Part shown: positions 856-30,978 of the stretch, piece after piece
How the letters are laid out: the number at the start of each line of letters is the position of its first letter
Numbering within the stretch: position 1 is the stretch's first letter
DNA from: a virus
Length of the DNA stretch: 30,978 nt
Direction: 5' to 3' (one strand)
IMG/VR virus record: IMGVR_UViG_3300037296_000224
Span: 1-30,978 of that record
Program-made: the position numbers and the translations under genes
Notes under the pieces: model-generated
The model's input: only the letters and a program-made list of their open reading frames with translations
Told to the model about the DNA's origin: nothing
Databases searched by the model: none

Positions 856-2178
856 ATGGCTAATATTAATGAAGCTGAACAATGGGATACCGGAGTTTAT
901 CAGCTTGAAACTACAGACCCGGTACAAGGTGGAGCAGATGGGGTAGATAACTTACCACATAAGCATTTAGCTAATAGAACTATTTGGCTGAAAAACAATA
1001 TGGCTTTAAAGAATGGAAATAATGATGAAAAATTCAAGGTAGCAGCTGCTGAAAATGATAATGAAGCTGTTAATAAATTACAAATGGAAGAAGCATTAAA
1101 AGCAGCAAAAAGTAGTGATACATTTTTAAAACCATCAAAATATAAACCTTTATTTGCAAAAACATCACCAACATCAATAATAATTCCAGCTGGATTTGCT
1201 GTAGTTGTTAATAATAACTTAGTTTCAACTGTATCTGATTATTCACTTGATTTAAATTTAGATTTAGATATAGGAACAAAAATTCAAGGAAAGGATTATT
1301 ATGTATATGTAACTTCTTCCGGTGTTTTTTATATTAGCTTAGATAATTCAATAGCAATAGATAAGCTTATCGGTGGTTTTCATTATGGCTTAACTGGTGA
1401 AAGTGAAGTTTTACCAACAAATGCTTTAAAAACTGAAGCTGACATGGTAGCTAACAGAGGTATTAAAGCCTATTCAATGTGGGATTTAACTTGGAAACCA
1501 GCAAACAAAAGACCAGAGGGTAAAGTTTTAGTAAATAATCTTTTTTGGAGAGATATTTATCCAGCTGATGAAGATTATGCAATTAGAGGTTATTCATCTT
1601 GTTTTGCTATTGATGGAGTTACCCCAGCTAAACTTGCTGGTGGCGATGAAAGTTATGGAAGAAAGTTTCCAAAAGTACCACTTTCAAAAGGTGGAAATGG
1701 AACTATAAACTATGGTTCACTTACTTGGTATGAAGCAAATGAAATAGTAAGTGAAGTTGGTATGAGAATGATTTCTTATGATGAGTTTTCTAATTCTTCT
1801 TATGGTGTTGTTGAGGAAAAATCACTTCAAGAACTTGGATATGCAACTGGAACTGGTGTCATTCAACATTATCCTGAATTTGAAAGTAAATGGGGTGTTG
1901 AAATGGCTGTTGGTGTTCAATACTATTGGGGTGGTCAAATCCTCAATGGATATGGTTCAACAAATTTTGCACATAGAAGTGGTTTAACTGATGGTAGAGG
2001 TCAAATATATGCTACTTCAAACTCACCGGTAGCTACAAGATTAGGAGGTTATGAATTATCAACCAGCACCACGCTCGTTGCCGGTTCTCGCCACCTCAAT
2101 TTGAATCATTACGTTTGGTATCCGCATTGGCATAGTGGGTTCGTTGCTGTCTGTGACCACGTGAACCTTGATAAGTGA
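856..2178 (+). CDS. Tail fibre, DGR variable (target) protein
   Basis: This 440-residue protein takes the tail-fibre position after J and I. Its N-terminus (residues 10-48, including QLETTDPVQGGADGVDNL and HLANRTIWLK) is the attachment module common in P2/Mu-type tail fibres. From about residue 205 the protein looks like the C-type-lectin/formylglycine-enzyme-like fold of DGR targets (WDLTWKP, LFWRDIYP, YEANEIVSEVGMRMISYDEF, and YYWGG and R-S-G-L motifs). Residues 404-434 are encoded by the variable repeat. The residues that differ from the template are L407, H413, N417, H418, Y422, P423, H424, H426 and S427; all sit at template AAY, AAA or ACG codons. The conserved GFVAVC scaffold follows them. 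Known DGR targets place such residues on the ligand-binding face, so this is probably the receptor-binding tip. A ribosome-binding site, AAAGGAAAG, lies just upstream. Confidence 0.92.
   Translation: MANINEAEQWDTGVYQLETTDPVQGGADGVDNLPHKHLANRTIWLKNNMALKNGNNDEKFKVAAAENDNEAVNKLQMEEALKAAKSSDTFLKPSKYKPLFAKTSPTSIIIPAGFAVVVNNNLVSTVSDYSLDLNLDLDIGTKIQGKDYYVYVTSSGVFYISLDNSIAIDKLIGGFHYGLTGESEVLPTNALKTEADMVANRGIKAYSMWDLTWKPANKRPEGKVLVNNLFWRDIYPADEDYAIRGYSSCFAIDGVTPAKLAGGDESYGRKFPKVPLSKGGNGTINYGSLTWYEANEIVSEVGMRMISYDEFSNSSYGVVEEKSLQELGYATGTGVIQHYPEFESKWGVEMAVGVQYYWGGQILNGYGSTNFAHRSGLTDGRGQIYATSNSPVATRLGGYELSTSTTLVAGSRHLNLNHYVWYPHWHSGFVAVCDHVNLDK
2064..2156 (+). repeat. DGR variable repeat (VR)
   Basis: This 93-base segment aligns without gaps to the template repeat at 2541-2633. 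All 10 differences are at template adenines (VR positions 2074, 2075, 2092, 2106, 2107, 2119, 2122, 2125, 2131, 2135). Ten of 25 template adenines are changed and none of the 68 other bases. Changes are A to C (6), A to T (3) and A to G (1). One further A to C lies just outside at 2063. The last 20 bases, GGGTTCGTTGCTGTCTGTGA, are identical in both copies and nearly free of A, as expected for the 3' homing-initiation end. Homology stops at 2157. Confidence 0.97.
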
Positions 2179-2190
2179 GTGAAAACGAAC
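2139..2190 (+). other. Possible VR-side initiation element with inverted repeat
   Basis: The 3' end of the VR contains GTTCGTT (2139-2145), whose reverse complement AACGAAC lies at 2184-2190, just past the target stop codon. In the Bordetella phage DGR, a hairpin or cruciform just downstream of VR promotes retrohoming, and the VR-side initiation sequence differs slightly from its template counterpart. Here the VR and TR sequences diverge right after 2156/2633, which fits that asymmetry. The arms are only 7 bp with a 38-base spacer, so the structure itself is tentative. Confidence 0.35.
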
Positions 2191-2191
2191 G

Positions 2192-2518
2192 ATGAATAAC
2201 CTACTAATAATTGAAAAATATGAAGAGTTTGTAAACTATGTTTATCCAGTTGTGCAAAATATAGATAGAAAACATGGCTATGTAAAACAAAAGTTTATAG
2301 ACTTGATTTTTCAGCAAGTAGATATATTCTACAAAGCTATAAAATCAAATCAAAAATCAAGACTTTATGAAGCTGATGGGAATTTGGCTTCAATCAGATT
2401 TTATTTAAGATTTTTAGCAAATGATAAAAGAAAATTACTTTCAAAAAAGCAGCAACAAGTGTGTGAAATAAAACTTGCTGAAGTTGGAAGTATTTTAAAT
2501 AGTTGGATTAAAAAATGA
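2192..2518 (+). CDS. avd: DGR accessory variability determinant (Avd-like)
   Basis: A 108-residue, almost entirely helical, basic protein lying between the target gene and the template repeat, the position of Avd in Bordetella-type DGRs. Avd forms a barrel-like pentamer of four-helix-bundle subunits (related to S23/23S-intervening-sequence proteins), binds the reverse transcriptase and template RNA, and is required for mutagenic homing. Consistent features are the N-terminal amphipathic helix (YEEFVNYVYPVVQNI), the lysine-rich second half (NDKRKLLSKKQQQ) and the typical length. It begins 13 bases after the target stop. Its stop overlaps an ATG at 2515 that opens the frame running through TR. 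Identification rests on context plus composition; there is no catalytic motif to check. Confidence 0.85.
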   Translation: MNNLLIIEKYEEFVNYVYPVVQNIDRKHGYVKQKFIDLIFQQVDIFYKAIKSNQKSRLYEADGNLASIRFYLRFLANDKRKLLSKKQQQVCEIKLAEVGSILNSWIKK

Positions 2519-2540
2519 AAACTATAGGGCAAAAAGATAA

Positions 2541-2633
2541 CAGCACCACGAACGTTGCCGGTTCTCGCAACCTCAATTTGAAAAATTACGTTTGGAATAC
2601 GAATTGGAATAATGGGTTCGTTGCTGTCTGTGA
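2541..2633 (+). repeat. DGR template repeat (TR)
   Basis: Invariant master copy for the variable repeat (2064-2156). Read in the target frame it carries asparagine codons at seven of the nine positions that differ in VR, plus AAA and ACG at the other two; AAY codons give wide diversity without stop codons when A is randomised. G/C content is 41 of 93, visibly higher than the surrounding A/T-rich phage DNA. It lies 22 bases after avd and 167 bases before the reverse transcriptase. Confidence 0.97.
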
Positions 2634-2800
2634 GCATTTACATCTTTTGCACTCATTACAAGTTAAGGCTTTAATGGTGCGACCTTTAAAAACAATGGTC
2701 AGCTTTTTGTCCTACGAAAGTAAACACATTACGAGGTCTGTAAAAATAGGAGTATTGAAATATAGAAACTATAAGACAGCACAATTAAGGAAAATAATTA
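2541..2800 (+). ncRNA. TR-spacer RNA template for cDNA synthesis
   Basis: In the Bordetella phage DGR, the reverse transcriptase-Avd complex primes cDNA from a TR RNA that includes a structured spacer of roughly 140 bases downstream of TR. The interval 2634-2800 here is of similar size, lies in the right place and has no recognisable gene, so it is inferred to be that spacer. Transcription is presumably from the tail operon, since no separate promoter is evident. The exact 5' and 3' ends cannot be read from sequence. A 97-codon open frame (2515-2808) crosses the interval; see findings. Confidence 0.7.
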
Positions 2801-3808
2801 ATGGGTAAAAAATATAAAAATTTATTTGAACAAATTATTGATATAGATAATATCAGAGCAGCTTATAACAAAGCTGTAGCTGGTGGAAATAGATATGGTT
2901 CAAGTCATTTATTTTTTAAAGAGAACTTAGAACATAACCTTTTTTTAATTCAAGAAGAACTGAAAAATGAAAGTTATGTTGTAGGCGAATATTATCAATT
3001 TAAAGTATATGAACCAAAAGAAAGATTAATCCATGCACTACCTTTTAAAGATAGAGTTGTACAACACGCAATTCATAATGTAATCAGTCCTATTTTTGAA
3101 AAAACTTTTTATCCATGTTCTTATGCTTGTAGAAAAAATAAAGGCACTCACAAAGGTGTGAAAGAAGTTCAAGGAACAATAAGAAAATTAGCAAAAATAG
3201 GTGAAGTTTTTTATCTAAAAATGGACTTTTCAAAATACTTTAATAGTATCTTTGGAATTTTTCTTTTAAAGGAAATATCAAACAAAATCAAAGATTTAAA
3301 AGTTTTAAAGTTATTGAAGCTTTTTATCAATGATGTTGGTATTCATATTGGTAATTTATTATCTCAACTTTTTGCAAATATTTACGGGCATATTTTTGAT
3401 AGATTTATCAAAACAAAACTAAAAATAAAATACTACTTTAGATATATGGATGATACAGTTATTCTTTTAAATGATAAATCAAAGCTTATCTATATTCAAA
3501 GAGTACTTCAAAGATTTATTTCAATGTTTATGAAACTAAAGTTTAGTAAATGGTTTATTAATAGTGTTGAAAGTAAGAGTTTGAACTTCTTGGGATATAG
3601 AATAAGAGAAAAATATAAATTGATAAGAAAAGATAGTGTAGTTCGTGCTAAAAGAAAAATAAAAAAGTATAAGAAACAAAATAATGAAGAACAACTAGCA
3701 AAGTTTTTAGGTTCTTGGACTGGACATATAAACACTTGTGATAGTGCAAATCTTAAATTCTATATAAAAAAGGAGTATGAATTATGGAACAACAAACAGT
3801 TAGCTTAA
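2801..3808 (+). CDS. DGR reverse transcriptase
   Basis: A 335-residue reverse transcriptase of the retroelement class associated with DGRs. Visible motifs in order: KVYEPKERLIHALPFKDRVVQHAI (residues 68-91, fingers), the first catalytic aspartate in LKMDFSKYFNSI (D142), the DGR-type motif IGNLLSQ (183-189) where group II intron enzymes carry QG..SP, the catalytic YMDD box (215-218), and LNFLGYRI (261-268). No maturase, thumb-X or endonuclease domain follows, as expected for DGR enzymes. It makes error-prone cDNA from TR RNA, misincorporating opposite adenines, and the cDNA replaces VR in the fibre gene. The ATG at 2801 overlaps the end of the frame crossing TR. The 3' end overlaps the next gene by 25 bases. 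Confidence 0.97.
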   Translation: MGKKYKNLFEQIIDIDNIRAAYNKAVAGGNRYGSSHLFFKENLEHNLFLIQEELKNESYVVGEYYQFKVYEPKERLIHALPFKDRVVQHAIHNVISPIFEKTFYPCSYACRKNKGTHKGVKEVQGTIRKLAKIGEVFYLKMDFSKYFNSIFGIFLLKEISNKIKDLKVLKLLKLFINDVGIHIGNLLSQLFANIYGHIFDRFIKTKLKIKYYFRYMDDTVILLNDKSKLIYIQRVLQRFISMFMKLKFSKWFINSVESKSLNFLGYRIREKYKLIRKDSVVRAKRKIKKYKKQNNEEQLAKFLGSWTGHINTCDSANLKFYIKKEYELWNNKQLA

Positions 3809-6137: not shown

Positions 6138-7991
6138 TTGGCAAAAACATTAGAACTTGGAGTTGTTCTTGGTGCTACAGATATGTTATCACCAGTCTTT
6201 TCAAAAGCAAGTACAAACCTAAACAAATTTCAAGGTAAAGTAAAAGCACTTGGTGCGAGCATGACAAAGCTTGGTGCAGTATCTCTTGGTCTTGGAGCTT
6301 CTTTAGCAATTCCACTTGGGAAAGCATTAACAAGCTATCAGGATCTAGCAGCTGCACAGGGTGAGATAGCTTCACTTGGTATAAGTGATAGTGGTATAAA
6401 AGCTATTACTAAAGCTAGTATGGAATTTTCTAATCAATTTGCTGGAACAACAGCACCTGAATTTGTAAAAGCTTCATACGATATTAAAAGTGGTATTTCA
6501 AGCTTATCTGATACAGCAGTTGGTCAATTTACAAAGTTAGCAGCTATGACTGGTGCAGCTACAAAATCTTCTACTGGTGAAATGACTTCATTATTTGCTA
6601 GTGGTTTTGGTATCTATAGACAACAATTTGAAAATTTCGGTGCTACTACTATTGGTGGTTGGAATAAACTAAGTGCTGAAGAAAAAGATGTAAAGTTTGG
6701 TGAATATTTTAGTGCTGGTATATCTTCAGCTGTTCAAGCTTTTAAAACTGATGGTGCTAATATGAGTGCTGCAATATCAAATCTTGGTGCAGCTGCTACT
6801 ACTGCAAATGTTCCATTTAATGAACAGCTTTCAATACTTGGTATGCTGCAAAAAACAATGAGTGGTAGTGAAGCAGCTACAAAATACCGAGCTTTTTTAA
6901 GTAGTGCAACTGGTGCTAGTGATAAACTTGGTCTTTCTTTTATGGATAGTAATAATCAGCTACTTTCAATGCCTGAAATTATTAGCCAAATCAAAGATAA
7001 GTATGGTGAAACAATAGATGCAGTTGAAGCTGCTGAGCTTAAAAAAGCTTTTGGAACTGAAGAAGCTGTAGCTTTAGTAACACAACTATATGATAAAACA
7101 GATGTTTTAACTGATAGTATGTATAGTTTAGGTGATAGCTTAAAACAAGGAACAGTACTCACTGAAGATATGGCTAAAAAGATGAATAAAGGTCGTGAGT
7201 TTGAAGTACTTGGTCAAAAGATGGGAAATTTATCATCATTAATTGGTCAAACATTCGCACCAGCTGCTTTAATGGTTGGTAATGTCATTGGTGATACAGT
7301 TTTAAAAGTTCAAGTATGGATGAAAGATAATGAAAAACTAGCTGGTACTATTGGTACAGTCTTAGCTGGTGTTGCTGGACTTCTTACTGTTCTTGGTACA
7401 GTAGCTATTACCGTTGGTGCTGTAACTATGGCTATACCAGCTTTAACTACTGCATTTGCTGTACTAAGTGGTGGTATTGGTTTTCTTGGTACTACTATTG
7501 GTTTTGTAGGTAAAATGTTTTTAATGAACCCTATAGGTTTGGCTGTAACTGCTATAGCAACTGCTGCATATTTGATTTATGATAATTGGCAACCAATAAG
7601 TGAATTTTTTATAAACTTATGGGGTGGTGTTACATTAGCAGCTGATAGCTTTTTTAACTGGATAAGTTCTAAGTTTGATTGGTTTGGTAAATCTGTAAGT
7701 AAGTTAAAAAATATTGGTTCATCAATAGCTGGTTTTTTTGGTTTTGGTGGTGATGATCAAAAAGAAAATACAAAAAAAGCAACTGCTAGTAAAAGTGTTT
7801 CAATAGCTCAGCCAAGAATGAACTATGCCACACCAAATATAAGTAGTCCAGCTTCACAAAAAAATCAAAATATTACACAACATATAAAAGTAAATGTACA
7901 AAATCCATCTAGTAATGTTGAAGTAGAAACTGCTATAAGAAATGCTATGGCTAATGGTGGAGCTGATAGAGGGTTAAGTGATGATTTATAA
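6138..7991 (+). CDS. T: Tail tape measure protein (P2 T-like)
   Basis: The 617-residue product has the TP901/P2-type tape-measure organisation: the N-terminal stretch LGATDMLSPVFSKASTNLNKFQGKVKALG, a long Ala/Gly/Ser-rich region (70-380), a hydrophobic segment with probable membrane-inserting helices (about 400-485: LAGVAGLLTVLGTVAITVGAV, then FLGTTIGFVG) and a polar C-terminus. Tape measure length sets tail length; at 617 residues it is shorter than P2 T (815), implying a shorter tail. It uses a TTG start at 6138, directly after the E' stop and preceded by AAAAAGGA. Confidence 0.92.
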   Translation: MAKTLELGVVLGATDMLSPVFSKASTNLNKFQGKVKALGASMTKLGAVSLGLGASLAIPLGKALTSYQDLAAAQGEIASLGISDSGIKAITKASMEFSNQFAGTTAPEFVKASYDIKSGISSLSDTAVGQFTKLAAMTGAATKSSTGEMTSLFASGFGIYRQQFENFGATTIGGWNKLSAEEKDVKFGEYFSAGISSAVQAFKTDGANMSAAISNLGAAATTANVPFNEQLSILGMLQKTMSGSEAATKYRAFLSSATGASDKLGLSFMDSNNQLLSMPEIISQIKDKYGETIDAVEAAELKKAFGTEEAVALVTQLYDKTDVLTDSMYSLGDSLKQGTVLTEDMAKKMNKGREFEVLGQKMGNLSSLIGQTFAPAALMVGNVIGDTVLKVQVWMKDNEKLAGTIGTVLAGVAGLLTVLGTVAITVGAVTMAIPALTTAFAVLSGGIGFLGTTIGFVGKMFLMNPIGLAVTAIATAAYLIYDNWQPISEFFINLWGGVTLAADSFFNWISSKFDWFGKSVSKLKNIGSSIAGFFGFGGDDQKENTKKATASKSVSIAQPRMNYATPNISSPASQKNQNITQHIKVNVQNPSSNVEVETAIRNAMANGGADRGLSDDL

Positions 7992-11068: not shown

Positions 11069-11229
11069 CAAAAACCGTTACAAAAACCGTTACAAAATAC
11101 TAAAAAAAACTACTTTTGCGATAAGGCAGTGGCTTTATTTAGTATTAAATGGACTAATAGACATTAAACTAAGAATGTGATAAACATAGTAGTTTAGGCA
11201 CTTTTAGAGGTGTCGTCACAAAAACTGTT
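11068..11229. repeat. Repeats near int, candidate attP arm-type sites
   Basis: The 12-base sequence ACAAAAACCGTT occurs in direct tandem at 11068-11079 and 11080-11091, and once more with one change (ACAAAAACTGTT) at 11218-11229 inside the integrase 3' end. Repeats of this kind around the stretch next to an integrase gene are often arm-type binding sites of attP. The approximately 125 bases between the endolysin and integrase also hold an inverted repeat, AAACTACT/AGTAGTTT. No core crossover sequence or tRNA fragment could be recognised. Confidence 0.4.
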
Positions 11230-12300
11230 ACAAAAAACATTAAGTGACGTGTCTATTTTGTCCGTTTCATCTTTTAAAAATTTGTTATAATGCTTTATTA
11301 GCATTTGTATATTTGCATGACCTAAGATACTTGCAACCTCATTCATGCTAAATTTATTACTGTTTAGCAATGTAGTAGCGAATGTGTGTCTTGTTTGGTA
11401 TAAAGTCCTATATGGTATCTTCAATCGTTTTAAAAGTGGCATCCACATAAACTTACGAACATTTGGTAAATGTGGCTGTTTCCCTTTATCTGTTAAAAAT
11501 ACATAAGTTTTCATTCCAGTTACTCTTTGTTGATCTATTAAAAACGGAACTAAATTATCAAATAATGGTATAAATCTTGCTTTACCAGTTTTTGTTGTTC
11601 CCTCTTCATATTGTCCTCGTGTCGAATCTATATAAATCTTTTTATTTTTAAAATCTATATTTTGCCATTTTAAAGCAAATAGTTCACCAGTTCTTGCACC
11701 TGTAAAAAATCCAGTTGCTAAAAAGTTTTTAAACCATCCACCAGCAGTATCTAAAATGGTAGAAACTTCATCTATATCAAATGGAAATACATCTGCTTTT
11801 ATTTTATCTTTTGGTAGCTTTACTTTGTTACAAGGATTTATTTCTAAAACCTCGCAAAATATCGCTTCATCAAAAACACCTCTTAAAACGCTTAAATACT
11901 GTTTTGCTGAACTTGTCTTAATATTTAGTGACAAAAGTATATCTCGTATCTCATTTGCTTTAATATCTGCTATATCTCTATCTTTAAAAAATCTTACCCA
12001 TTTATTCAATGTTGCAGTATAATTTTTCAATGAAGATGGTTTTGCATCTCTTTCTTTTATATTTAGAGTTTTTTGACTATAATTGTCAAATGTATTTTTA
12101 TTAACTTCTTGCTTTGTAAGTACGATCTCACCGCTAAGTATTTTCGCACGAACAAGAGGAAGCACCTCTTTTTTAACTTTATCTAAATCTTTCTCTAGAT
12201 AATTTGTTTTTTGAACAACCCTTTTACCGTTGATCGAAAAATTCAGATAAAGAAACTGGCTGTCTTTTCTCTTGAATACAGTCCCTTTGCTTATTTTCAT
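11194..12300 (-). CDS. int: Tyrosine-recombinase integrase
   Basis: A 368-residue phage integrase. The N-terminal 60 residues form an arm-binding-like domain (FLYLNFSINGKRVVQKT), followed by a SAM-like core-binding domain (SSLKNYTATLNKWVRFF, to about 165). The catalytic domain contains R203 (GARTGEL), a probable lysine at 237 (TKTGKARFIP), R304 in YQTRHTFAT, H328 (LGHANIQ) and the nucleophile Y338 (KHYNKF). In the H-x-x-R box the first position is Y301, a variation seen in related integrases. It overlaps an excisionase-like gene by 77 bases and is the last gene of the leftward operon. It probably integrates the phage at an attachment site just downstream. Confidence 0.93.
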   Translation of the reverse strand: MKISKGTVFKRKDSQFLYLNFSINGKRVVQKTNYLEKDLDKVKKEVLPLVRAKILSGEIVLTKQEVNKNTFDNYSQKTLNIKERDAKPSSLKNYTATLNKWVRFFKDRDIADIKANEIRDILLSLNIKTSSAKQYLSVLRGVFDEAIFCEVLEINPCNKVKLPKDKIKADVFPFDIDEVSTILDTAGGWFKNFLATGFFTGARTGELFALKWQNIDFKNKKIYIDSTRGQYEEGTTKTGKARFIPLFDNLVPFLIDQQRVTGMKTYVFLTDKGKQPHLPNVRKFMWMPLLKRLKIPYRTLYQTRHTFATTLLNSNKFSMNEVASILGHANIQMLIKHYNKFLKDETDKIDTSLNVFCNSFCDDTSKSA

Positions 12301-12538
12301 TGTGTTTTCCTTGTGTTAAGAAATCCACCGCCTTATCGCTAAATAATATTTTACCACCATTAGGCTTAGAATAGTGAAGTCCTTCTGTTAATTTTGCTTT
12401 GAGTTTATATAGCGTAGCAACTGCAAATTTTGTTCTTTTTGATAACTCTTCAATCGTAAAATAGAAGTTCATATCTTTTGGAACTAACTTGTATTCTATA
12501 TCATCTAGTATTATTGTTTTGAATTTGAAAGCACTCAT
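12224..12538 (-). CDS. Small HTH protein, probable excisionase
   Basis: A protein of 104 residues from the ATG at 12538, which has an excellent GAGGAG ribosome-binding site; a longer in-frame TTG start at 12556 would itself lie over that site and is unlikely. Residues 26-70 (FTIEELSKRTKFAVATLYKLKAKL then GKILFSDKAVDFL) look like the MerR/excisionase-type winged helix-turn-helix that reads 'turn, recognition helix, wing'. It overlaps int by 77 bases, an arrangement typical of xis-int. A role in controlling direction of recombination is inferred. Confidence 0.65.
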   Translation of the reverse strand: MSAFKFKTIILDDIEYKLVPKDMNFYFTIEELSKRTKFAVATLYKLKAKLTEGLHYSKPNGGKILFSDKAVDFLTQGKHNENKQRDCIQEKRQPVSLSEFFDQR

Positions 12539-12570
12539 AATTTTCTCCTCTCTCAAAAATTTCTCTAACT

Positions 12571-12601
12571 TTTATAGTATAAATCTCATTTTTTTTATCA
12601 A
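12571..12601 (-). promoter_or_regulatory. Candidate promoter for xis-int
   Basis: Reading leftward, TTGATA (12601-12596) is followed after 16 bases by TACTAT and directly by TATAAA (to 12571), about 33 bases before the start of the excisionase-like gene. It lies in the 72 bases between dut and that gene, so int and xis could be transcribed independently of the ssb-dut operon. A/T richness limits certainty. Confidence 0.35.
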
Positions 12602-12610
12602 TATCTAGGT

Positions 12611-13111
12611 CTATAATTTACAATTATCATCTTCCGCAACTCCTAATTCATTTAACATTTTCACACTTTTATAAATATCTTTTTTATCAGTACTTCCAAA
12701 ACCACCACTTCTTTCATCTTCACTATCAATATCATCATCAAATGCTAATACTGTTCTATTTTCACAATTTTGTACAAATCTATGTAGCTGTACTGGATTG
12801 TGTACTATCATCATAATTTCATCTTTATAATCTAAATCAATTACGCCTACACCATTTGGAAGTATTAGACCTTTTTTACCTAATCCACTTCTTAGCATAA
12901 GTTGTAAGTAGTGAGATTTTAAATAGTTTTCTTTAAATTGTTCATCTTTAAATTCAACACATAAACCATCTAAATCAATTTTTACACCTAGTGGTACAAG
13001 TACAGTTTCACCAGCTGCAATAGTAATATCTTCTTTAGCTCTTAAATCTACAGCAGCACTATATTTAGTACCTCTTGTAGGTGTACAAGCTTCATCTAAA
13101 ATTTTAAACAT
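12611..13111 (-). CDS. dut: dUTPase (trimeric dUTP diphosphatase)
   Basis: Hydrolyses dUTP to dUMP and pyrophosphate, keeping uracil out of phage DNA and feeding dTMP synthesis. The 166-residue product shows motif 1 SAAVDLRA (18-25), motif 2 RSGLGKKGLIL (74-84), motif 3 NGVGVIDLDYKDEI (86-99) with the catalytic aspartate and tyrosine, and the glycine-rich motif 5 RSGGFGSTDK (134-143). Motif 4 is weak. An insertion, VEFKDEQFKENYLKSHYLQLM, between motifs 1 and 2 and a C-terminal extension after motif 5 are longer than in typical bacterial enzymes. The ribosome-binding site is GGGAG. It lies in the leftward early operon. Confidence 0.92.
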   Translation of the reverse strand: MFKILDEACTPTRGTKYSAAVDLRAKEDITIAAGETVLVPLGVKIDLDGLCVEFKDEQFKENYLKSHYLQLMLRSGLGKKGLILPNGVGVIDLDYKDEIMMIVHNPVQLHRFVQNCENRTVLAFDDDIDSEDERSGGFGSTDKKDIYKSVKMLNELGVAEDDNCKL

Positions 13112-13180
13112 CTTTTTTTAACTCCCTTAATTTTCACTATCTCTTTCTCCTAGACATCTTTTTTCTGTTTGTTTTAAGGG

Positions 13181-13864
13181 TTAGCATCTGTATTCCACCA
13201 GTTCATACTCATATACAAATACAAAAGGTTTATCTTCCCATCTATAACGCTTTTTAGCTGTTGCGTTCCAAAGATACTTGTACCAAGTAAATGGACTGTC
13301 ACCTTTTTCTAAAATATTATCATGCATATAATATTTATCAACATTCAATCCCTCTTTGACAATATCCTTCTCACTAATATCTTGTAATCCCTCAACTTTT
13401 ATAGAAGTGATTTTATAAAAGTATCTAGCAAGTGACTTGCAACAACCATTAGGTATTCCTTTGCAATCCCATAACCAAGATTTAGCATTTTCAGGAAAAT
13501 CATCCCAGTGATAAAAAATCTCTCCATCTCCGAGATATTGAACATCTGCATAATCATCTAATTCGGCTCCACCATAATTACCAGCAGCACTATAGTGTAT
13601 TATTTTAGCTGGTTCTCTTATCCAAATAATATCACCGACTTTGTATTTAGAAACATAATCTATAAACTCTTTTGTTGTTGATACATCAACAGCACCATTT
13701 TTGTTTTGATATTCTATACAGTCATGTTTAGTGCTATAAATCAGATAATTACTAACAACTCTTCGTGTCATAGTTTTATGTTTTAATAGTTTTGCTACTG
13801 TTTGGTTTACTACTAGGGGTTTTGCTATTTCTAATAGTTGTTGTTTTATTGGTAGGTTATTCAT
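13181..13864 (-). CDS. ASCH-like phage protein
   Basis: The 227-residue product resembles phage proteins with an ASCH-like RNA-binding fold: an early TMTRRVV motif (31-37), a KYKVGDIIWIRE strand (74-85), ARYFYKITSIKVEGLQDISEKDIVKEG (145-171) and a closing tryptophan-rich FVFVYEYELVEY. These proteins are common in the early regions of temperate phages, with unproven roles in RNA or nucleotide-linked processes. It starts at 13864 within the end of a 27-residue gene (8-base overlap). Confidence 0.6.
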   Translation of the reverse strand: MNNLPIKQQLLEIAKPLVVNQTVAKLLKHKTMTRRVVSNYLIYSTKHDCIEYQNKNGAVDVSTTKEFIDYVSKYKVGDIIWIREPAKIIHYSAAGNYGGAELDDYADVQYLGDGEIFYHWDDFPENAKSWLWDCKGIPNGCCKSLARYFYKITSIKVEGLQDISEKDIVKEGLNVDKYYMHDNILEKGDSPFTWYKYLWNATAKKRYRWEDKPFVFVYEYELVEYRC

Positions 13865-13940
13865 AATACTTGTCCCATTCTTCTTTTGTAGCCTGTTTTA
13901 AAAATAGCTCTATTCTTTTTTGGTGAAAGTCTTCATTCAT
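13857..13940 (-). CDS. 27-residue acidic/basic mini-protein
   Basis: A 28-codon frame from the ATG at 13940, reading MNEDFHQKRIELF and ending KEEWDKYYE. Its start overlaps the stop of the zinc-ribbon gene as ATGA, and its end overlaps the next gene by 8 bases, so it is placed for coupled translation in a gap-free operon. A ribosome-binding site (AGAGGA) lies upstream. It is likely a single amphipathic helix. Function unknown; being so short, it could still be fortuitous. Confidence 0.55.
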   Translation of the reverse strand: MNEDFHQKRIELFLKQATKEEWDKYYE

Positions 13941-14458
13941 TTTAATTTTTCCTCTTTTACTGTTAATTTATTTCCGCACTTAGGACAAAAGTGCATATTG
14001 TTGTCTATAGGTGTACCTGCATTTATAGAGAAATACATACCGCACTCACTTTCGTAGTCGTTATCTCCATCTTCCTCTTCGGTCCAATGACAGACTTCTT
14101 TATTATCTTTTTGTTCTAAATCAGTTATTTCTGCTCTTAAATCAGTTATTTCTGCTCTTAACTGAACAATTTCCTCTTCTAGTTCTCCTTTTATTTCTCT
14201 TTCTTCCTCAACTTCTATTTCTAATCTACAGGCATTATATTTATAACTTTTTAAAGAAGATTGTAATTGTAAATACTCTTCGTTTGTTGTAAGAAGTTCA
14301 TTTAGTTCATTTTCAAAGAGCTTTACTTCTGTACCACTATCAAATACATATTTTGTTTGTTCGTTTCCTAAATATTCTGTTGTCATATTATTTCTCTCTT
14401 TTTTAGTTTTATTTATTTTATAAAATAGTTCAGGGTGGTTATCTCTTAGATTTCCCAT
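13937..14458 (-). CDS. Coiled-coil protein with C-terminal zinc ribbon
   Basis: A 173-residue protein. The central part (about 60-125) is a highly acidic coiled coil, including a duplicated heptad (LRAEITDLRAEITDLEQ) coded by a 21-base tandem repeat. The C-terminus has cysteine pairs, CHW..., CGMYF and HFCPKCGNKL, that form a probable zinc ribbon. The start at 14458 is joined to the preceding gene as TAATG; a second good start is the ATG at 14386 (MTTEYLGNEQ) with its own AGAGAG site, giving 149 residues. Function unknown. Confidence 0.7.
   Translation of the reverse strand: MGNLRDNHPELFYKINKTKKERNNMTTEYLGNEQTKYVFDSGTEVKLFENELNELLTTNEEYLQLQSSLKSYKYNACRLEIEVEEEREIKGELEEEIVQLRAEITDLRAEITDLEQKDNKEVCHWTEEEDGDNDYESECGMYFSINAGTPIDNNMHFCPKCGNKLTVKEEKLK
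14118..14159 (-). repeat. 21-base tandem repeat, two copies
   Basis: Two perfect tandem copies, at 14118-14138 and 14139-14159, encode the seven-residue unit LRAEITD twice in the coiled coil. The unit keeps reading frame, so copy-number change would lengthen or shorten the rod in heptad steps. Confidence 0.95.
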
Positions 14459-19630: not shown

Positions 19631-19809
19631 TGGCTAAGAAAAAGCAAACAGAAAAATACTTTAATTGTAGCACTTGTAGAGAGAGTGATTACTTCTTAGG
19701 GGTGATGTATTGTACTTGCAGAAATAGTAAAGAAGATGAACCACAATCATCAAGTTTGTGTGAAGACATTAAGAGTTGTAATTTTTATAGAGAGAGAAAA
19801 ATAAAATGA
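19630..19809 (+). CDS. 59-residue cysteine-rich protein
   Basis: A 60-codon frame starting with GTG at 19630, overlapping the previous stop (TAGTG), with a strong GGAGAGG site 8 bases upstream. The product has six cysteines in FNCSTCRES, MYCTCRNS, SLCEDI and KSCNFY, enough to bind one zinc ion. It ends KIK with ATGA overlap into the recombinase. Tight coupling on both sides argues that it is real. Function unknown. Confidence 0.72.
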   Translation: MAKKKQTEKYFNCSTCRESDYFLGVMYCTCRNSKEDEPQSSSLCEDIKSCNFYRERKIK

Positions 19810-20894
19810 TTAGCTCTAAAAGATATGGTTCAAAAGTACAATTAAATCACCTTGTAAAAGGTGATATTACTTATTATATCGTTTATAAAATAGCTGGTAA
19901 AACACAATATAAAAAAGTAGGTAGAAAATCTGAGGGGATAACTGAAAAGAAATGTATAGAACTTAGAAATCAAATACTTAGTGAACAAAGACACGGTATA
20001 GATCTAAGTCAAAAAAGCTTTAAACATTTAACTTTCGACAAATTGGCTGAAACATATTTTGTAAGTAATGAAGCCCATAATAAAAGCAATAAGAAGTACC
20101 AGCAAATGTATCAAAATCATATACAGCCAAGCTTTGGTGATGTGGTTATAGCAAAACTAGATGATAGTTTGATATATGAACTTCAATCACTTAAAAAAGC
20201 TGAAAATAAAAGTAATAGCACTATAAATATCATAGTAAAACTTATCAAGAGAATTGTTGGATTTGGAATAGCAAAAGGTATTATTAATTATAGTCCATTT
20301 AAGAATATAAAACTTTTTAAAATCAACAATACAAGGCTTCGATATCTTAGTAATAGTGAAGTGTTAAGATTAAAAATTGATGTAATAGATAATAAAATAT
20401 TAAATCTTTTTGTAAGAATTGCCCTGGGAACAGGTGCAAGAGCTAGAAGTATTTTAGCTATTCAAAAAAAAGATATAAACCTTGAAAATAGAACTATTAC
20501 AATAAAAGATTTTAAAAGAAATAATACTTACATCGGTTATGTTCCTGATGATACTTTTAAAATGATTATTGAAAATATTGAAAGTTTTGGTGTAAATGGT
20601 TATGTAGTTTCAGCTGATGGAGCTGCTACAAAATATCAAAGAATATATTTAGAACTTACAAAGATATTTAATCAGTTTAATAGTGGATTACTCAAAGATG
20701 ATAGAGCTAACAGGGTAGTAATCCATACACTTAGACATACATTCGCCAGTCATTTAGCAATGCAAGGTGTATCAATCCAAGAGATACAAAAACTGATGAA
20801 CCATAAAGATATTCAGCAAACATTGAAGTATGCAAAACTAAGCCCTGATAGTGGCAGAAAGTTTGCACAAAATCTATATAAGGAAAGTAAATAA
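19806..20894 (+). CDS. Second tyrosine recombinase
   Basis: A 362-residue tyrosine recombinase, distinct from the integrase at 11194. The N-terminal 65 residues resemble an integrase arm-binding domain (ITYYIVYKIAGKTQYKKVG), then comes a core-binding domain (YQQMYQNHIQPSFGDVVIAKL). Catalytic residues are seen in GTGARARSILAIQ (R), IKDFKRNNT (K), HTLRHTFASHL (H and R) and MNHKDIQQTLKYAKL (H and the nucleophile Y). It is on the opposite strand to int, among replication and packaging genes, and ends with TAATG into the next gene. It might resolve genome multimers, or be a second integrase. Confidence 0.9.
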   Translation: MISSKRYGSKVQLNHLVKGDITYYIVYKIAGKTQYKKVGRKSEGITEKKCIELRNQILSEQRHGIDLSQKSFKHLTFDKLAETYFVSNEAHNKSNKKYQQMYQNHIQPSFGDVVIAKLDDSLIYELQSLKKAENKSNSTINIIVKLIKRIVGFGIAKGIINYSPFKNIKLFKINNTRLRYLSNSEVLRLKIDVIDNKILNLFVRIALGTGARARSILAIQKKDINLENRTITIKDFKRNNTYIGYVPDDTFKMIIENIESFGVNGYVVSADGAATKYQRIYLELTKIFNQFNSGLLKDDRANRVVIHTLRHTFASHLAMQGVSIQEIQKLMNHKDIQQTLKYAKLSPDSGRKFAQNLYKESK

Positions 20895-29971: not shown

Positions 29972-30978
29972 TATAAGCAATTTACCAAAACCTGATGTAA
30001 TGCAAGTTTTAGACTATGAAGCGATTTTAAATCAAAACATAGATAATTTTAAAACATTAGTACCTGATTGGATACCACTAGAAAGTGATGAATTTAAGAT
30101 GATACTAGAAGCATTTGCATATAGGGAACTTCATCTAAGATCTGAATTTAACAACTTAGCTACTGCCTTTTTTTTATCTACATCAACTAAAAATGATTTA
30201 GATAATTATGCAGTTTTTTATGATGTTGAAAGGCTTGATGGTTCTAAACCTTATGCTAAATATGAATTTGCACTTAGTGAAGTTTTGGCACAAGATGTAG
30301 TGATACCAGCTAACCTAATCTTAACAGATGAAAATAGCGAGTATCAAGGAAAGCTTTTAAATAGTGTAACTATAGCAGCTGGTGAAGATAAAGCTACTGG
30401 TACAGTTGAATTACAGCTTGAAATACAAACAAGTGATATAAAAACTGAAATCATTACTACATCTTTACCTTTTGTGGTTGAAGCAAAAGCACTAGATGTA
30501 TTTCTAAATGGTTCAGATGTAGAAAGTGATGAAGAGTTTAGAGCTAGAATACTTTTAAGTATGGCTGATAAAAGTACAGCTGGTAGTGAAGAAACTTATA
30601 AATCATTTACTTTTAATGCTGATGAAAGAATTGAAGATGTAGCAGTACTAAATGGTGGTGCTGGTGTGGTGAATGTTTTTTATTATAGTGCAACAGCTGA
30701 TGATCTAATGCAAACTAGAATAGAAGAAATGTTAAATAAAGAGATTGTAAGACCTCTTAGTGATAACCCACAAATAACAACTGCAACTGAAGTACCTTTT
30801 GATGTAGTTGCTCAGCTGAAGATATTACCAAACCAAGAAACTGCAACTGTATATAGTAATGCTATGAAAAGTTTAACTGACGGAATAGCTGCACTAAAAA
30901 AGATTGGTACAGATATAACACTAAGTGAAATCAATGACTTTTTAAAAGTTGATGGTGTCAAAGAAGTCGTAATAACTT
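29964..30978 (+). CDS. J: Baseplate protein J, 5' part (P2 gpJ-like)
   Basis: The first 338 codons of the baseplate J protein, cut by the window end and completed by bases 176-255 at the left end (the last 175 bases here repeat 1-175), for a full length of 364. Family blocks are MINISNLPKPDVMQVLDYEAIL, LVPDWIPLESDEFKMILEAFAYRELHLR, a DNYAVFYDVERL segment and VFLNGSDVESDEEFRARILLSMADKSTAGSEETYK. With W and I it forms the outer baseplate to which the diversified fibre is attached. Confidence 0.93.
   Translation, partial: MINISNLPKPDVMQVLDYEAILNQNIDNFKTLVPDWIPLESDEFKMILEAFAYRELHLRSEFNNLATAFFLSTSTKNDLDNYAVFYDVERLDGSKPYAKYEFALSEVLAQDVVIPANLILTDENSEYQGKLLNSVTIAAGEDKATGTVELQLEIQTSDIKTEIITTSLPFVVEAKALDVFLNGSDVESDEEFRARILLSMADKSTAGSEETYKSFTFNADERIEDVAVLNGGAGVVNVFYYSATADDLMQTRIEEMLNKEIVRPLSDNPQITTATEVPFDVVAQLKILPNQETATVYSNAMKSLTDGIAALKKIGTDITLSEINDFLKVDGVKEVVIT
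30804..30978. repeat. Terminal overlap, right copy
   Basis: Same 175 bases as at 1-175, with A at the position equivalent to 48. See the left copy. Confidence 0.93.

Follow-up and report, generated by a model that had tools for sequence, protein, structure and literature searches.

A complete diversity-generating retroelement (DGR) of the BPP-1 type almost certainly occupies positions 856-3808 of the viral DNA analysed here (30,978 nucleotides, hereafter the window), where it would diversify the tail protein of a temperate Campylobacterota myophage. The initial annotation, which was made from the letters alone, had described such an element aimed at a tail fibre, and profile, structure-sequence and repeat comparisons bear out each part and coordinate that it gave. 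The features of the element are as follows, with VR, TR and RT standing for variable repeat, template repeat and reverse transcriptase.

856-2178, +: target gene, Mtd-like receptor-binding tail protein of 440 aa (aa 89-438 Mtd-like)
2064-2156, +: VR, 93-base alignment to TR
2137-2156, +: conserved IMH-like stretch forming the 3' part of VR; ends GTCTGTGA, followed by CCAC as in BPP-1
2175-2190, +: target-site hairpin GTGAGT-GAAA-ACGAAC; GRNA loop, 6-pair stem, tandem A.G/G.A at pairs 3-4
2192-2518, +: avd (accessory variability determinant), 108 aa; PF22296 bAvd, E 1.3e-31; solved BPP-1 Avd, E 5.8e-27
2541-2633, +: TR, 25 adenines; gapless 93-base match to VR
2650-2780, +: structured DGR RNA in the TR-RT spacer; RF03022 Phage_DGR, full-length model match
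2801-3808, +: DGR reverse transcriptase, 335 aa; IGNLLSQ and YMDD

Three parts were absent from the first reading, namely the RF03022 RNA (2650-2780), the hairpin that follows the VR (2175-2190) and a 175-base terminal repeat of the phage.

Parts of the element and the phage that carries it

The RT displays both the signature of the DGR group, (I/V/L)GxxxSQ in motif 4, as IGNLLSQ, and the catalytic YxDD, as YMDD, and its best match of solved structure is bRT 8ub7_A (E 4.8e-78). Also present is the combination that marks BPP-1-type elements, an Avd and, between TR and RT, a structured RNA; the TR-RT spacer of 167 bases is conserved among relatives, and in an Rfam model search it scored 78.7 bits for RF03022, whose threshold is 50 and which is also matched by nine relatives and by BPP-1 itself. 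The reading frame at 2515-2808, which contains the TR, was without a family match in protein family searches and is read as template RNA, not as a gene. At its 3' end the TR has an IMH*-like sequence that departs from the VR directly past TGTGA (GCA in the TR, CCA in the VR). The VR has a G+C content of 52%, against A+T-rich coding surroundings (25% G+C in the RT gene).

The BPP-1 element (mtd-avd-TR-brt) provides the closest comparison among the known systems, sharing with the window its gene order, a homologous target, Avd and RT (the latter 45% identical to Bordetella bRT), the RF03022 RNA, the IMH 3' end GTCTGTGACCAC and the GAAA loop of the hairpin. The two differ in the N-terminal anchor of the target and in the hairpin stem, which has eight Watson-Crick pairs in BPP-1 but tandem G.A pairs in the window, and the window is a myophage of another phylum. 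The target-avd-RT order is also seen in the DGRs of Pseudoalteromonas phage ACA1, a P2-like phage, of Vibrio phage VP58.5 and of Aeromonas phage, whose RTs, however, are about 35-40% identical to that of the window and form a separate tree group, and whose hairpins have perfect stems and lie farther from the VR.

The window contains sheath, tape measure, P2-like baseplate, portal, major head and terminase families, together with a CI-like repressor and two integrases, so that the earlier description of a temperate myophage stands on the sheath, baseplate, integrases and repressor. The two ends of the window share a near-exact direct repeat of 175 bases (1-175 and 30804-30978, with one T/A mismatch), which implies a near-complete genome of about 30.8 kb, either circular or terminally redundant. 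The integrases of this small phage are two tyrosine recombinases, at 11194-12300 (-) and 19806-20894 (+); a recombinase 61% identical to the latter also lies beside the head module of a related prophage, L324.

The assignment to Campylobacterota is upheld by a prophage-like contig of the Sulfurimonas MAG OB8, which is colinear with the window, starting at the major head protein and continuing to the end of the tail module, and carries a DGR in the same slot (identity to the window 67% for the RT, 73% for Avd and 65% for the sheath); its target, however, has a different N-terminal module, and its TR and VR have diverged. The prophage L324, which belongs to another genome of this phylum group, is likewise colinear with the window and has a sheath 84% identical, but its slot (12301-14455) holds an ordinary tail fibre of 223 residues and two small genes, with avd, TR and RT all absent. 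This fibre and the window target share residues 1-84 alone (52%), and the comparison of the two slots indicates that the cassette is an exchangeable module, attached downstream of an anchor that is the phage's own.

The target protein itself matches Mtd (1yu4, E 6e-26) over aa 89-438, VR included, and also matches PF21916 'Mtd second domain', in keeping with the tail receptor-binding role first ascribed to it. Residues 1-61 match other phage tail-fibre families, and aa 1-81 are the phage-specific tail-fibre anchor. Within the 16 codons after GSR the BPP-1 TR has seven mutable codons, each of which has a mutable counterpart at the same offset in the window TR, where three further codons can mutate as well; about 2e14 protein variants are reachable, and one of the codons (AAA) can mutate to a stop. 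Structure prediction from a 12-sequence alignment was too poor for use (pLDDT 43, with the VR domain unresolved), and it is by homology to Mtd that the target would adopt a lectin-like fold with its variable residues exposed.

By homology to BPP-1, VR variants would switch the receptor, and thus the tropism, of the phage. As the kinship of the target with Mtd is one of homology, the diversified protein might instead serve some role other than host-receptor choice, e.g. virion stability or attachment to non-host surfaces, although this seems improbable, given that the homology covers the whole of aa 89-438, that the gene occupies the tail-fibre slot and retains the phage's own N-terminal anchor, and that its mutable codons align with those of Mtd.

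Adenine-directed rewriting of the variable repeat

Over the 93 gapless bases of their alignment, VR and TR differ at 10, and all 10 fall on TR adenines; the initial count of 10 changed among 25 adenines and none among the 68 other bases is thus exact, with a chance probability of p = 4.0e-7 (hypergeometric). A search with the RT as query gave 80 viral and 80 genomic loci. A comparison of relatives for VR/TR divergence had been put forward as a check, and was made with the window and 20 relatives with RTs 48-93% identical to its own, MAGs of Helicobacteraceae, Sulfurimonas and Arcobacteraceae among them, giving 21 loci and 22 TR/VR pairs. Throughout this family the bias recurs: the VR is changed at 232/553 TR adenines versus 13/1,870 other bases, and several of these 13 changes fall at the IMH/IMH* edge, a place at which the two repeats should differ in any case. 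In a wider set of 134 loci, obtained by automatic TR/VR detection, 2059 of 2203 mismatches are at TR adenines, a figure which is descriptive only, as detection demanded an A bias of at least 75%.

The nearest relative, L002, has an RT 93% identical to that of the window. The two TRs differ at 10 positions that hold adenine in neither, and at all 10 each VR equals its own TR, a match that two independent sequences would not have kept, so that the VR has been recopied from the TR since the two phages diverged. Judged by the substitutions between the same pair (dN 0.039, dS 0.379; dN/dS about 0.10), the RT is under purifying selection. We infer that the element has been active recently, and by homology to BPP-1 it would be active at present. 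The window is one assembled sequence with a single VR, as a relic would also appear if all its parts had survived, diversification had ceased in this phage and the VR differences were old; this we regard as very unlikely in view of the intact RT with its low dN/dS, the intact RNA scaffold (RF03022) and the VR that, after the separation from L002, has tracked its TR at every one of the 10 diverged non-A sites. Ordinary gene duplication and divergence without retrohoming, which the presence of two similar 93-base segments 477 bases apart might suggest, is already refuted by the concerted evolution of TR and VR and by the restriction of every difference to one template base, a pattern repeated in 20 related loci, and the repeats are moreover linked to an RT, an Avd and a DGR RNA.

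Some further observations concern single loci. In L002 the RT (L002:1964-2968) reads GNLLSK rather than GNLLSQ, which is off the DGR signature; the VR/TR differences of this locus are nevertheless almost only at adenines (8/10). The window VR shows A to C in 6 of its 10 substitutions, four of them Asn to His, compared to 28/222 in the relatives (Fisher p 9e-4), and the absence of this excess from L002 points to selection or chance, not to the enzyme. One relative (L022) has a single TR with two matching VRs, at 6318-6415 and 7164-7261, about 850 bases apart. Suspected RT stops in L018 and L019 turned out to be natural gene ends.

In the mechanism proposed for the window, the avd-TR-RT transcript would be the source of TR RNA with its structured 3' spacer, from which an RT-Avd complex would make antisense cDNA with errors opposite adenines; here the RT-Avd-RNA biochemistry is carried over from BPP-1 by homology. 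With the shared IMH stretch and the DNA hairpin 18 bases past the VR as guides, this cDNA would then replace the VR, in the 3'-terminal part of the tail-protein gene. Loops on the surface of the lectin-like C-terminal domain would thereby be randomised, yielding progeny able to bind altered host receptors.

A target-site hairpin with tandem G.A pairs

Homing in BPP-1 requires a hairpin just past the VR, which both strands can extrude, and the published phage hairpins have stems of 7-10 GC-rich Watson-Crick pairs under a GRNA loop (PMC3240598). The hairpin of the window, which starts 18 bases after the VR and overlaps the stop codon of the target gene, has such a loop (GAAA) but a stem of six pairs, the third and fourth of which, counted from the loop, are A.G and G.A. 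It is treated as a stem variant, and the GC-rich stem as non-defining, because loop, position and covariation are all kept. Of the 128 DGR loci left after dereplication, a GNNA loop tops six Watson-Crick pairs in 42, and 30 have exactly A.G/G.A at pairs 3-4 with Watson-Crick flanks, where 0.007 would be expected from shuffling; any other double mismatch occurs in one. The flanking pairs of these 30 loci vary with compensation (pair 1 C-G or T-A; pair 2 G-C or A-T; pair 5 T-A, C-G or G-C; pair 6 G-C, A-T or T-A), whereas both G.A pairs are invariant, which follows in part from the definition of the class. The hairpin arms are found in swapped order too, and at least six switches between the two stem forms have occurred on the RT tree. 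The class counts, covarying flanks and repeated switches together indicate that selection acts on this hairpin, in whose stem tandem G.A stands in for Watson-Crick pairs.

Tandem 5'-GA-3' mismatches in a pyrimidine-GA-purine context are unusually stable in DNA. Nearest-neighbour DNA folding predicts a stable G.A stem on neither strand, and by standard DNA energy parameters the stem is weak; the argument is one of conservation and covariation, not of energy. In a collection-wide search, the 16-base hairpin pattern adjoined a VR in 7 of 78 loci, compared to 0/42 for a control pattern, so the motif is not DGR-specific and is informative only by its place after the VR.

On the antisense strand the two positions read C.T and T.C, so the G.A pairs can form on the sense strand only, a restriction that points to a hairpin of the sense strand and away from a symmetric cruciform. 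A 2026 study accords with this, in that the target orientation it found favoured places the cDNA-complementary strand on the lagging-strand template (PMC12875486); the independence of orientation that was reported in 2011 (PMC3240598) is harder to reconcile with it. On balance we lean slightly towards there being two equivalent hairpin forms, the perfect GC-rich stem and the short G.A-locked stem with a GNNA loop, whose functional form would be a single-stranded hairpin of the sense strand, probably on the lagging-strand template at the site of cDNA annealing, and not a symmetric cruciform. In the literature searched, which is not the whole literature, no earlier description of the tandem-G.A stem form was found.

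Distribution and significance

Placing the RT in a DGR tree had also been proposed, and in a tree of 77 loci, built by a quick search without bootstrap, the window falls within a clade of 24 rows (SH-aLRT 99) that includes the RTs close to its own from all three named Campylobacterota MAGs (Helicobacteraceae, Sulfurimonas and Arcobacteraceae) and has as its neighbour the group with BPP-1. In 397 sampled Campylobacterota genomes DGR markers occur in about 2%, with 8 genomes above the bAvd cut-off and 3 with RF03022; most lower-scoring bAvd matches had no adjoining DGR RT and were left out of the count. Several other genomes of the phylum carry a second DGR lineage with RTs 36-41% identical to that of the window, and four of its loci (L169, L171, L172 and L173) have TR/VR pairs of their own, two with G.A hairpins and two with perfect stems.

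The view that such elements are little described holds within the literature searched, where no paper on a DGR in a Campylobacterota phage was found and a survey of 2012 lumps Delta- and Epsilonproteobacteria as 2.6% of its DGRs (PMC3521204). While the DGR itself is a known device, phage DGRs in Campylobacterota thus seem to be undescribed, and the present one carries receptor diversification of the BPP-1 type into phages of sulfur-oxidising Campylobacterota, where a single tail-fibre slot gains and loses a DGR while the virion anchor is retained. The tandem-G.A hairpin is the part likeliest to surprise the specialist. It bears on which of two shapes, cruciform or single-strand hairpin, the target hairpin takes when it acts in homing, and on the strand concerned; natural variants whose stem is restricted to one strand open this question to direct testing.
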